A program made the position numbers and the translations under genes. The notes under the pieces are model-generated. The model was not told where the DNA came from and ran no database searches. It worked only from the letters and a program-made list of their open reading frames with translations. 64,000 bases of DNA, from the NCBI RefSeq assembly GCF_026967985.1, contig NZ_JAPVBJ010000003.1, positions 495,101 to 559,100 of the forward strand. The letters run 5' to 3'. This document shows, in pieces, positions 3,029 to 8,775 of this stretch. This DNA comes from Modestobacter sp. VKM Ac-2984 (GTDB taxonomy: Bacteria; Actinomycetota; Actinomycetes; Mycobacteriales; Geodermatophilaceae). Numbering within the stretch: position 1 is the first letter of the stretch; every line of letters begins with the position of its first letter.

Positions 3029-4321
3029 TCAGCGCAGCCGGAACAGCACCTCTCCGGCCTCGGGCACCAGCAGGGTGTCCGGGTCGGCCGCGGCGGCGGC
3101 GAGGTCGACCTCCGCCGGGTCCAGGTGCTCCAGGTTGGCCCTCCGGACGACGTCCTCGGGGATCCCGGTGGCGAGCGTGACCCGCACGCGGGGCCGCTCG
3201 ACCCCGGTCGCGGCGTCGTAGGTGCCCGTCCCGCGCAGGTGGGTGGAGTGCGCCAGCACTCCCCAGTGCAGGTGGGCGAAGCGCTCCCACTGCTGCACGA
3301 AGTAGTCCCGGCAGTGGTAGCCGATCTCCTCGATCTCCGGGTGCATGGCGGAGATCGTCGTGATGTGCGGGGCGACGATCACGACCTCGCCGCCGTCGGC
3401 GACGATCGGCTCGACCTTGTAGAAGCCCTTCGCCGCCGTCCACATGTCGTCGTACTTCTCCGGGACGACCGACACCACCCGGCGCACCGGGGCGTCGAGG
3501 TAGCGGACGTGCACCTGGGCGGAGACCTCCGCCGCAGCTGCCCAGGCGGCCTGCGGGTCACCGAAGGCCACCGAGTGCAGCGCGCCCGTCCCGGACTGGG
3601 CCACCACGCAGATCGCCAGCCGCTGCGCGGGGACGAGAGCCGCGGCCTCGTCGATGAGCGCGCGCACCGGCGTGGTGCCGCGGGTGCCGATGATCTCCGC
3701 GCTGCTGATCAGCGCACCCAACCAGTGGGAGAGGTCGATGATCTCCTGGCCGGCGACCCCCGGGAAGAAGTACTTGTTGCCGCCGGAGAAGCCCACCACC
3801 TCGTGCGGGAACACCGGCCCGAGCACCAGCGCGACGTCGTGCTCGACGACGGCGCGGTTGAGCCGCACGTCCACGCTCTCGCGCAGCCGTCCCTCCGACA
3901 GCTCGGCGACCCGCTCGGCCGGGATGGTGCCCAGCGAGACGAACGTGCCGGGGTCGGCCCACTCGTGGTTCAGCACGGTCATGCCCGGATAGCGGGCGGC
4001 CAGGTCACCGGCGGGGTGGCCGAGGTGCCGGGCCAGCTGGGCCTCGGTCATGGCCGCGTGGGTCCCGAGGGCGATGAGCACGGTCAGCCGGCTCACCCGC
4101 CCGACGAGCGCCCCGTGCACCGCCGACAGCAGCATCGGCAGCGGGCAGCTGCGGGTGGCGTCCGGGACGATCACGCACACACTGCGCCCGTCCAGGTCCT
4201 CGGCCGCCAGGCAGTCGGTGAGGAAGCCGGTCACCTGGTCGGCCTCGAGCGCCTGGTCCGCACCGCCCATCGTCGCGGCGCGGCCGGCTGCCTGGGACTC
4301 GGGGGAGGACACCTGCGTCAT
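3029..4321 (-). CDS. LarA-family nickel-pincer hydroxyacid racemase/epimerase (candidate mannonate/gluconate 2-epimerase)
   Basis: A 430-residue LarA/DUF2088 protein. LarA enzymes interconvert the C2 stereochemistry of 2-hydroxyacids by hydride transfer to a nickel-pincer nucleotide covalently held by a lysine. The key residues are present: VPDATR near the N-terminus, GTH (His88), PHEVVGFSGGNK with His173 and the cofactor lysine Lys183, and DLSHW with His199. These match Lys184, His174 and His200 of Lactobacillus LarA closely (numbering from memory). The ATG at 4321 fits the family length; the frame stays open to 4639 without support. It is divergent from uxaC-uxuB-gntK and shares a 130-base promoter region with an operator. 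The context suggests a sugar-acid substrate rather than lactate: mannonate and gluconate are C2 epimers, and gluconokinase is in the operon. NPN-cofactor genes (larB, larC, larE) are not in the window. Family confident, substrate inferred. Confidence 0.88.
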   Translation of the reverse strand: MTQVSSPESQAAGRAATMGGADQALEADQVTGFLTDCLAAEDLDGRSVCVIVPDATRSCPLPMLLSAVHGALVGRVSRLTVLIALGTHAAMTEAQLARHLGHPAGDLAARYPGMTVLNHEWADPGTFVSLGTIPAERVAELSEGRLRESVDVRLNRAVVEHDVALVLGPVFPHEVVGFSGGNKYFFPGVAGQEIIDLSHWLGALISSAEIIGTRGTTPVRALIDEAAALVPAQRLAICVVAQSGTGALHSVAFGDPQAAWAAAAEVSAQVHVRYLDAPVRRVVSVVPEKYDDMWTAAKGFYKVEPIVADGGEVVIVAPHITTISAMHPEIEEIGYHCRDYFVQQWERFAHLHWGVLAHSTHLRGTGTYDAATGVERPRVRVTLATGIPEDVVRRANLEHLDPAEVDLAAAAADPDTLLVPEAGEVLFRLR

Positions 4322-4397
4322 GACGGCACCATGCGCCGCCTGCGACGGCGGTGGCAAGCGTCCCGCGCGGCCCACCGCCGCTGGCCGGGTTCCGGAC

Positions 4398-7231: not shown

Positions 7232-8775
7232 CGCCAGGCACCCCAGGCGGTGCCAGCGGCCCTCCGGGTGACGTCATCATCGGCCTGGACGTCGGCACGA
7301 CGGCGGCCAAGGCCGTGGCCTTCTCCCCCGGCAGCGGCTGGCAGGCCACGGCGCTGCGCGAGTACCCGCTCTCCGAGCCGCGGGCCGGCTGGCAGGTGCA
7401 GGACCCCGACGCCATCGTGGCCGGCGTGCTCGGGGCGCTGAAGGAGTGCATCGCCGCCACGGCGGGGGCTCCGGTGACCGCCGTGTCGGTCGGCACGGCG
7501 ATGCACGGGCTGATCGCGCTGGACCGGCACCACCGCCCGCTCACACCGCTGGTGACCTGGGCGGACGCGCGGGCGACCGCCCAGGCGCAGGCGCTCCGGG
7601 AGTCCGGCCGCGCGACGGAGCTGCAGCGGGTCACCGGCACGCCGGTGCACCCCATGTCCCCGCTGACCAAGCTCATGTGGTTCGCCGAGCACGACCCGGG
7701 GACCTGCGCGGCCGCCCGCTGGTGGGTGGGGCTCAAGGAGTACGTGCTGCTGGCGCTGACCGACTGCCTGGTGACCGAGCTGTCCTCGGCCTCGGGCACG
7801 GGGCTGCTCGACCTGGCTGCCGGTGACTGGCACCCCGACGCCCTGGGGCTGGCGTCGGTGGGCGCGGAGCAGCTGGCCGAGGTGCTGCCCACCACCGCCA
7901 TCCTCAGCTCCTCCCCCGCTGCCGCCGACCGCACCGGCCTGCGCCCCGGGACCCCGGTCGTCGTCGGGGCCGCGGACGGGCCGCTGGGCAACCTCGGCAC
8001 CGGCGCGATGCGGCCGGGCACCGCGGGTCTGAACCTCGGCACCAGCGGTGCCGTGCGCACCGTCGTCGACCGGCCGACGACCGATCCGGCGGGCCGCCTG
8101 TTCTGCTACGCCCTGACCGCCGACCACTGGGTGACCGGCGGCGCCCTCAGCAACGGCGCGCACGTGGTCCGGTGGGCGGGCTCGGCGCTGGCGCCGGACC
8201 TCACCGGCCCGGACGGGGACGACGAGGCCCTGCTCGAGCTGGCCGCGCAGGCACCGGCCGGCAGCGACGGGCTCGTCATGATCCCCTACCTGGTCGCCGA
8301 GCGGGCGCCGCTGTGGGACCCGGACATCCCCGGCGCCTACCTGGGGCTGCGCCGGGGGCACAGCCGGGCCCACCTGGTCCGCGCCGCCGTGGAGGGCGTG
8401 GCCACCCAGCTGGCGGTGGTGCTGGACGTCCTGGACGCGGTCGCCCCGATCACCACGGTCCGGGTGACCGGCGGCGCCTTCCGCTCGCCGCTGTGGCGCA
8501 GCACGGTCGCCGCCGCCCTGGGACGTCCGGTCCACGTCGGGTCCGATGCCGGCGGCGGTGCGCTCGGCGCGGCCGCGCTGGCGCTGTACGCCCTGGGCCA
8601 GAGTGCCCACCTCGAGGACGCGCCCGCCCTCCTCGCCCCTCCGGAGGACGAGCCACCGCCGGTGGAGGCCACGGCCGACCACGTCGCCGTCCTCGCCGAC
8701 CTGCGCACCCGCCTCCCCGCACTGGTCGAGGGCCTCGGCCGGGTGGCCGCGGCCTCGGCCGCGGGCCCGCGCTGA
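7228..8775 (+). CDS. gntK: FGGY-family carbohydrate kinase, gluconokinase type
   Basis: A 515-residue FGGY kinase of the actin-like ATPase fold. The N-terminal phosphate loop is IIGLDVGTTAAKAVAF. The stretches SVGTAMHGLIALD, TPLVTWADARA and TGTPVHPMSPLTKLMWF are typical of the Gram-positive gluconokinase branch rather than xylulokinase or glycerol kinase. Product would be 6-phosphogluconate. It ends the uxaC-uxuB-kinase operon, started by a GTG overlapping the previous TGA, and stops 13 bases before the converging transporter gene. A gluconate kinase makes sense behind UxaC/UxuB only if mannonate is turned into gluconate, which points to the divergent LarA-type gene. Xylulokinase or another sugar-acid kinase remains possible. 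Confidence 0.88.
   Translation: MTPGTPGGASGPPGDVIIGLDVGTTAAKAVAFSPGSGWQATALREYPLSEPRAGWQVQDPDAIVAGVLGALKECIAATAGAPVTAVSVGTAMHGLIALDRHHRPLTPLVTWADARATAQAQALRESGRATELQRVTGTPVHPMSPLTKLMWFAEHDPGTCAAARWWVGLKEYVLLALTDCLVTELSSASGTGLLDLAAGDWHPDALGLASVGAEQLAEVLPTTAILSSSPAAADRTGLRPGTPVVVGAADGPLGNLGTGAMRPGTAGLNLGTSGAVRTVVDRPTTDPAGRLFCYALTADHWVTGGALSNGAHVVRWAGSALAPDLTGPDGDDEALLELAAQAPAGSDGLVMIPYLVAERAPLWDPDIPGAYLGLRRGHSRAHLVRAAVEGVATQLAVVLDVLDAVAPITTVRVTGGAFRSPLWRSTVAAALGRPVHVGSDAGGGALGAAALALYALGQSAHLEDAPALLAPPEDEPPPVEATADHVAVLADLRTRLPALVEGLGRVAAASAAGPR

Follow-up and report, generated by a model that had tools for sequence, protein, structure and literature searches.

Introduction

A route from mannonate to gluconate through the epimerase GntE, continued by GntK and Gnd, was proposed in 2012 by Rodionova et al. 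for the use of galacturonate in Thermotoga (as cited in PMC6978723 and PMC7583248). In T. maritima, a UxaR-regulated gnd-uxaRED-gntEK operon is described, with a separate kdgAK-uxuBA operon for glucuronate (Rodionov et al. 2013, according to PMC3750489). Desguin et al. (2020, as reported in PMC7583248) showed mannonate/gluconate activity for two enzymes of the LarA family, GntE1 and GntE2, and noted a uronic-acid context for the GntE1 (Corynebacterium) group; GntE2 (LarAH20) of T. maritima, the protein of structure 4NAR, converts D-mannonate to D-gluconate in vitro. Here we describe a gene cluster of Modestobacter sp. VKM Ac-2984, in which a gene for a LarA-family protein, named gntE below, lies beside genes for glucuronate breakdown. 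It is located in a stretch of 64,000 nucleotides (contig NZ_JAPVBJ010000003.1, positions 495,101 to 559,100), which is called the window. The cluster very probably encodes a complete glucuronide pathway that bypasses the Entner-Doudoroff-like branch by means of a nickel-dependent epimerase.

A third GntE has been reported from Phytophthora (PMC11770544), and Valk et al. (2020, PMC6978723) reported that Lactobacillus suebicus has the activities of a mannonate kinase and of a 6-phosphomannonate 2-epimerase. In the available text of a 2019 review of hexuronates (PMC6353982) there is no mention of such an epimerase, and in that of a 2025 review of sugar-acid metabolism (PMC12076931) UxaE appears four times and gntE nowhere in the main text. 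The annotations given in a paper on bryophyte actinobacteria include mannonate dehydratase and 2-keto-3-deoxy-6-phosphogluconate (KDPG) aldolase (PMC7550540), so that, as far as that source goes, other actinobacteria do have the classical pathway. A literature search, from which most subscription journals were excluded, gave no recognised account of a nickel-epimerase route for glucuronate in actinobacteria.

A proposed route from glucuronides to ribulose 5-phosphate

In the proposed pathway, the beta-glucuronidase UidA would release D-glucuronate, UxaC would isomerise it to D-fructuronate and a UxuB-like reductase would convert the latter into D-mannonate. GntE, loaded with the nickel-pincer nucleotide (NPN) cofactor that LarB, LarC and LarE would make, would then invert C2 by transient hydride removal and yield D-gluconate, the presumed substrate of an FGGY kinase that would form 6-phosphogluconate. 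Finally, Gnd would decarboxylate this compound to ribulose 5-phosphate, which enters the pentose phosphate pathway. Carbon is presumed to flow in this direction, and both arms are probably coupled by a LacI-family repressor that acts on an operator in the gntE-uxaC gap. The chain from glucuronate to 6-phosphogluconate had been put forward in a preliminary description of this DNA and finds good support in genome content, gene linkage and regulation; the gluconokinase-like kinase, the neighbouring second gnd, larBCE and the shared operator all favour the same pathway. The proposal is built on sequence data, namely the genes and their families, the catalytic residues, the lack of UxuA and KDPG aldolase matches, the LarBCE proteins and the second Gnd encoded in the genome, and the conserved linkage and operator.

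The gene gntE (3029..4321, minus strand) encodes a LarA-family, NPN-dependent epimerase of 430 amino acids, the proposed D-mannonate/D-gluconate 2-epimerase. It is divergent from uxaC (4452..5867, plus strand), which lies 130 bp away and encodes a glucuronate isomerase of 471 amino acids (NCBIfam NF002794, 549.5 bits, cut-off 387). The uxuB-like gene (5864..7231, plus strand; 455 amino acids, Mannitol_dh and Mannitol_dh_C domains), whose product is the proposed fructuronate reductase leading to D-mannonate, and the gene of the FGGY gluconokinase-like kinase (7228..8775, plus strand; 515 amino acids) have GTG starts that overlap the stops of the genes before them, in a tight uxaC-uxuB-kinase operon. 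These family matches and overlapping starts and stops bear out the three genes as they had been recognised in the preliminary description. The beta-glucuronidase gene uidA (10120..11919, minus strand; 599 amino acids) scores 894.7 bits with NCBIfam NF007538 (cut-off 544). A second gene for 6-phosphogluconate dehydrogenase, gnd (L083:14025-15446; TIGR00873, 636.4 bits, cut-off 426.7), is located about 0.6 kb before the window, beyond the lacI gene of the cluster.

The substrates of the reductase and of the kinase are proposed by homology. With NCBIfam, the reductase scores 259.6 bits for D-arabinitol 4-dehydrogenase, 219.2 for fructuronate reductase (cut-off 603) and 162.1 for tagaturonate reductase, and reaches none of the cut-offs; for its Knoellia counterpart, the fructuronate reductase model is the highest (243.8 versus 241.1 bits). 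The kinase stays under the cut-off of gntK_FGGY (TIGR01314; 370.7 bits, cut-off 648.55), yet this is its best model. Its best match in the PDB is 3gbt, 'Gluconate kinase', with 280.8 bits versus 153.3 for the next one, and a gluconokinase function is suggested. A P-loop gluconokinase is present elsewhere in the same genome.

The LarA-family protein

The GntE protein matches Pfam Lar_N (PF09861) with 82.2 bits (cut-off 23.3, E 3.8e-23), and this domain places it in the LarA superfamily. Among solved structures, the best sequence match is 4NAR (215.4 bits, E 1.5e-62). The AlphaFold model, with a mean predicted local distance difference test (pLDDT) of 91.0, also finds its best fold match in 4NAR (template modelling score, TM, 0.87; 32% identity), and the next matches are lactate racemase structures (TM 0.69-0.74).

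In the alignment with lactate racemase 2yjg, Lys183, His173 and His199, which had been named from the letters alone as the cofactor lysine and its histidines, fall on residues 184, 174 and 200, and these positions agree with the numbering given for LarA in PMC7583248. In the alignment, D54, R57, H88, H173, K183, H199 and K298 correspond to LarA D72, R75, H108, H174, K184, H200 and K298. These seven residues, NPN-binding or catalytic, do not vary in any of 87 homologues, a set composed of the 80 loci described below, the window and six homologues from further genomes; both the three residues and their numbering were correct. The loop E174-V175 is also kept in all 87, and an EV/S loop motif is given in PMC7583248 as a feature of LarA groups 18-20. 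With this loop, and with GntE2/4NAR as the nearest characterised relative among solved structures (a comparison that did not include the GntE1 sequence), the protein fits the GntE enzymes of groups 19/20. Its action as a mannonate/gluconate 2-epimerase is proposed from such relationships.

Other identities were tried and rejected. The score for the group-18 hexonate epimerase, NPN_18_hexonate (NF052594), was 174.6 bits, under the cut-off of 500, and therefore the protein is not placed in group 18. For lactate racemase (NF033504) and malate racemase (LarAH6), scores were 73.6 bits (cut-off 460) and 112.4 bits (cut-off 500), respectively.

Conserved linkage across genomes

An alignment-based scan of named genomes with the LarA-family protein gave at least 561 relatives, the best 80 loci being retained with no random draw (79 actinobacterial by name and one unclassified metagenome-assembled genome). 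The closest relative among the matches listed is Modestobacter sp. VKM Ac-2985, with a 95% identical protein. At every locus the position of gntE was set by homology, and its neighbourhood was taken as 10 kb, shorter at contig ends, which makes absences soft at several of the 80 loci. Genes were counted by tblastn with self-set bit thresholds and with reference sequences taken partly from those very loci.

On this basis, UxaC is found near gntE in 50 of the 80 loci, the UxuB-like reductase in 53 and both in 47. LarB is present in 29 loci, LarC in 30 and LarE in 30, and lower counts were obtained for the FGGY kinase (17), Gnd (11) and UidA (18). UxuA, represented by two actinobacterial references, was found near gntE in none of the 80. 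The linkage of uxaC to gntE is kept across many families. In a clustering of neighbours over 81 loci, the source of some of the references, UxuB, UxaC, LarE, LarC, LacI and LarB ranked top, a gene of the LacI cluster being close to gntE in 26 of the 81.

P-loop gluconokinases of the GntK/IdnK type, searched with five references (a sixth locus gave none), occur in 5/80 loci and in two further genomes, so that a gluconokinase of either fold is found in 22/80. The FGGY and P-loop enzymes have unrelated folds and never occur both at one locus; the P-loop gene lies 84 bp from gntE in L154 and 75 bp in L074. Two unrelated gluconokinase folds that fill one slot constitute the best sequence argument for free gluconate as the intermediate.

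Some loci are more compact than others. For instance, in Knoellia sp. Soil729 (L121) uidA, gnd, gntK and larC follow one another in the same direction, overlapping or 1 bp apart. This run adjoins gntE and the divergent uxaC-uxuB, and some 6 kb past uxuB are larE and larB. In two Blastococcus loci (L086 and L087), gntE, larE, larB and larC form a single run in which larB is a stand-alone gene. In another genome (G760), uxaC, uxuB and larBCE are together and gntE is about 336 kb off.

Two particular cases were observed. Genome G007 carries two gntE genes (L071 and L072), 77% and 67% identical to that of the window, each at a locus with uxaC and a uxuB-like gene. Eight gntE genes of Kribbella (L099, L100, L118, L120, L122, L124, L126 and L129) form one clade with no uxaC, uxuB or larBCE nearby, and two neighbour clusters with FAD (flavin adenine dinucleotide)-oxidoreductases have their representatives in Kribbella L124 and L100. 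The role of gntE may be different in Kribbella.

Genome content and co-occurrence

The Modestobacter genome (4.56 Mb, with a completeness rating of 100%) gave no match across its whole length to UxuA (PF03786) or to KDPG aldolase (PF01081), although the control genomes of Escherichia coli, Bacillus subtilis and T. maritima match both families. A uxuA and a kdgK elsewhere in the genome had been named beforehand as findings that would speak against the epimerase route. As regards uxuA, the genome-wide search favours the route; 2-keto-3-deoxygluconate (KDG) kinase was absent from the scanned cluster genes, and for this enzyme no genome-wide search was made.

The search for larB, larC and larE that had been suggested in the preliminary description found all three in the genome, and NPN synthesis is taken to be available. 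LarC and LarE exceed their NCBIfam cut-offs and LarB, with 165.3 bits, is slightly under its cut-off of 175. LarB is the C-terminal part of a 951-amino-acid protein (L065:10285-13140, minus strand) that also contains a GGDEF (diguanylate cyclase) domain and matches TPR weakly; larC comes directly after this fusion gene, and larE is located about 9 kb before the window. LarA-like matches of 28-31% identity are common in the genus.

Co-occurrence was studied in a sample of 393 genomes of the class, with UxaC over its cut-off in 59 and UxuA in 20. GntE was searched in the 59 UxaC-positive genomes and in 21 UxaC-negative ones, the latter drawn one after another from the sample of the class and negative in the sense of being absent from the list of UxaC matches. 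At a threshold of at least 48% identity, GntE is present in 15 of the 59 and in none of the 21 (Fisher p 0.008); two weaker LarA-like matches (G722 and G778) were excluded from the 15. Among the 59, GntE is found in 0/12 genomes with UxuA versus 15/47 without it (p 0.026). These statistics ignore relatedness, and a single family (f106) supplies six of the 15 genomes with GntE. In the 15 genomes, the gntE-uxaC distance, measured by match ends, is at most 300 bp in eight and at most 6 kb in ten. In a set of 59 nearer relatives, including the genome under study, eight have a GntE with 64% identity or more, and none of these eight has UxuA.

The operator and its predicted regulon

The half-site GGCAAC/GTTGCC is present in 35 of 39 divergent regions between gntE and uxaC, compared with a mean of 5.6 and a maximum of 12 in 200 shuffled sets. 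The full operator motif is approximately SAAYCGGTTGCCAYNWGTTGCC and exceeds 20 bits in 29/39 regions. In the window, the operator-like site between gntE and uxaC (4394..4419, minus strand) reads GAACCGGTTGCCACGTGTTGCCGTCC and scores 33.8 bits with the full matrix. With a matrix derived from 23 sites outside Geodermatophilaceae it still scores 32.7 bits. The operator matrix was trained on the gntE-uxaC regions, and matches before these two genes are therefore circular, those before other genes mostly not.

Across the loci, sites precede 38/50 uxaC, 11/18 uidA and 10/25 lacI genes versus 44 of 899 other genes, a control set that may contain some cluster members; for uxuB the figure is 5/53. From these counts, the predicted operator shared by gntE and uxaC is well supported, and that it also controls larBCE is weakly supported. 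Footprinting thus speaks for the operator that the divergent gntE had been said to share with uxaC. Further sites above 11 bits with the 23-site matrix lie before the gene of a glycoside hydrolase family 3 (GH3) enzyme (13.5 bits; an operator-like site at 2990 in the same position gives 16.9 bits in another scoring), in the gap between the second gnd and lacI (12.2) and before larE (15.0). This matrix also marks positions near an ATP-binding cassette (ABC) transport system (17571, 26856 and 26918), L083:451 (17.8 bits) and a position within an open frame (L083:5369, 12.7 bits). Ten shuffles gave no site above 11 bits with it.

The candidate regulator of the cluster is a LacI-family protein with Pfam LacI and Peripla_BP domains, whose C-terminal part is encoded at 1..693 (plus strand); the full gene (L083:15730-16794) starts before the window. 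This protein is the presumed binder of the operator.

Weighing of the proposal and its alternatives

Several observations weigh against the proposed pathway. Operator sites precede only 5/30 larE and 2/11 gnd genes, and none of 29 larB, 30 larC and 17 FGGY kinase genes. The reductase and the kinase are both under curated cut-offs. UxuA and GntE are both missing in 32 of the 59 UxaC-positive genomes, which indicates that other routes exist, and 24 of the 80 loci, including all eight of Kribbella, have neither UxaC nor UxuB near gntE. The genome contains a second LarA that is a nickel-dependent lactate racemase (L066:8479-9750; 533.5 bits, cut-off 460), so that LarBCE need not serve GntE. Finally, the C. 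glutamicum GntE1 has a Michaelis constant (KM) of 120 mM for D-mannonate, and its authors doubted that mannonate is the native substrate (PMC7583248).

This poor KM for free mannonate would be accounted for if the kinase acted first. The FGGY kinase would then phosphorylate D-mannonate, and the LarA-family protein would epimerise 6-phosphomannonate to 6-phosphogluconate, the carbon route being unchanged and the order reversed. Both activities have been shown in extracts of L. suebicus (PMC6978723), and the basic residues H327, H361 and R378 are invariant in the 87 homologues and changed in the sole divergent homologue (L079). However, P-loop enzymes of the GntK/IdnK type also occupy the kinase slot, and E. 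coli GntK has been reported as inactive on mannonate (cited in PMC6978723). Besides, 30 of the 50 loci with UxaC have neither kinase type, a situation that is easier to reconcile with free gluconate and a housekeeping gluconokinase, and related GntE enzymes use free mannonate. We therefore consider a kinase-first order unlikely.

Because of the high KM of GntE1, Desguin et al. (PMC7583248) put forward glucarate/mannarate as a possible substrate pair of the C. glutamicum group. If the Modestobacter protein likewise epimerised another sugar acid of the pathway (for instance, glucarate/mannarate or altronate/allonate), mannonate would be left to an unrecognised dehydratase. Five enolase-superfamily proteins match in the genome: an OSB (o-succinylbenzoate) synthase, an enolase, a DgcA-like racemase and two that lean towards talarate/galactarate dehydratase, both under the cut-off for that enzyme. 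With the model for ManD-type mannonate dehydratases, these last two score 109.8 and 90.6 bits versus a cut-off of 550, and a ManD among the five was rejected. Moreover, UxuA and KDPG aldolase have no match in the genome, and the gluconokinase-like gene and the neighbouring gnd are most consistent with gluconate or 6-phosphogluconate, so that another substrate appears very improbable.

That gntE is a passenger beside the uronate operon, such as the gene of a lactate or malate racemase, is hardly credible, since the models of both racemases score far below their cut-offs and the linkage to uxaC is conserved in many families, even if the activity of LarA homologues is not always predictable from context (PMC7583248).

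Neighbouring genes

Between lacI and gntE there is a gene for a GH3-type glycosidase (698..2965, minus strand), which scores 778.1 bits with an exo-alpha-(1->6)-L-arabinopyranosidase model (cut-off 1300). In a close relative (G001, locus L067, which seems to be one record with L085), gntE is followed directly by lacI and gnd, with no GH3 match between. Next to the kinase gene, a major facilitator superfamily (MFS) transporter (8789..10084, minus strand) has a weak likeness to glycoside-pentoside-hexuronide symporters (TIGR00792, 34.9 bits, far under the cut-off of 231.35) and is a possible glucuronide importer.

The region 15875-29669, in which operator-like sites lie at 17571 and 26856-26918, encodes two family-5 solute-binding proteins, Opp-type ABC permeases and ATPases and a GHL6 glycosidase; these transport genes perhaps take up uronic oligosaccharides. 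Within it, a 923-amino-acid protein (17733-20504) has no Pfam match and a faint match to alpha-D-galacturonidase (33.8 bits, cut-off 1300), and is possibly an unrecognised glycosidase. A site very similar to the uronate operator (35674-35699; 28.1 bits, or 29.8 with the 23-site matrix) lies some 330-430 bp before the gene for malate synthase G (33012-35246), and a tartronate-semialdehyde-reductase-like gene (32011-32910) is found nearby.

Significance of the proposed route

We lean, with moderate confidence, towards a wider reading in which glucuronate breakdown is obligately nickel-dependent in many Actinomycetota. A LarA-family epimerase would entirely replace UxuA, KdgK and Eda, carbon would pass through gluconate to the oxidative pentose phosphate pathway, and the epimerase would be co-regulated with at least part of its own cofactor synthesis. 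For the GntE clade of actinobacteria this would be the chief physiological function, and the C. glutamicum GntE1 group would have mannonate or, with lower likelihood, 6-phosphomannonate as its substrate. If this is true, a common sugar acid of plants and hosts would be degraded across a large phylum by a route overlooked in textbook annotation, and genomes with uxaC and without uxuA would be miscalled as incapable or incomplete. It would also assign a function in the cell, open to genetic testing, to a nickel-pincer clade whose natural substrate stayed open in 2020, and would tie the use of glucuronides to the supply of nickel. In its stoichiometry, the route down to ribulose 5-phosphate is redox-neutral, the reductase using one NAD(P)H and Gnd making one NADPH, which is of interest to metabolic engineers; this neutrality has likewise been noted for the L. 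suebicus pathway (PMC6978723). The Knoellia L121 and Blastococcus L087 loci provide compact gene sets for heterologous testing.

Comparison with known systems

The link from mannonate through gluconate to 6-phosphogluconate, as a proposal of 2012, and the epimerase activity, reported in 2020, were known before. The preliminary description had regarded the connection with glucuronate as its own inference. This claim has to be narrowed, as a hexuronate link had been proposed in 2012 for Thermotoga galacturonate and the uronic-acid context was noted in 2020. What is new here is GntE chemistry as the apparent main glucuronide route of UxuA-less Actinomycetota, in genomes where it seems to act without a second pathway, with its larBCE linkage and operator.

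The E. coli-type pathway (UxaC-UxuB-UxuA-KdgK-Eda) shares with the window UxaC and a reductase of the mannitol dehydrogenase family, but matches to UxuA and KDPG aldolase are absent from the Modestobacter genome. The L. suebicus route likewise joins the isomerase pathway to 6-phosphogluconate and bypasses UxuA, KdgK and KdgA. However, phosphorylation precedes epimerisation there, the substrate is galacturonate and the genes have not been identified (PMC6978723).

The C. glutamicum GntE1 (LarAH19) resembles the present proposal in its conversion of mannonate to gluconate in vitro and in its uronic-acid context. The C. glutamicum control genome has matches to LarC and UxaC and none to UxuA. In four presumed Corynebacterium genomes the homologue is 50-53% identical, with LarB and LarE nearby in 4/4, LarC in 3/4 and UxaC in 0/4.

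The T. maritima GntE2, with its gnd-uxaRED-gntEK operon, is like the Modestobacter system in fold and in the proposed reactions from hexuronate to ribulose 5-phosphate, and Thermotoga also groups gntE, gntK and gnd. However, the Thermotoga operon serves galacturonate and pectin through UxaE, kdgAK-uxuBA being kept for glucuronate, and the two epimerases share 32% identity. In Modestobacter, by contrast, UxuA and KDPG aldolase were not found, a beta-glucuronidase gene belongs to the cluster and the candidate regulator is LacI-like.

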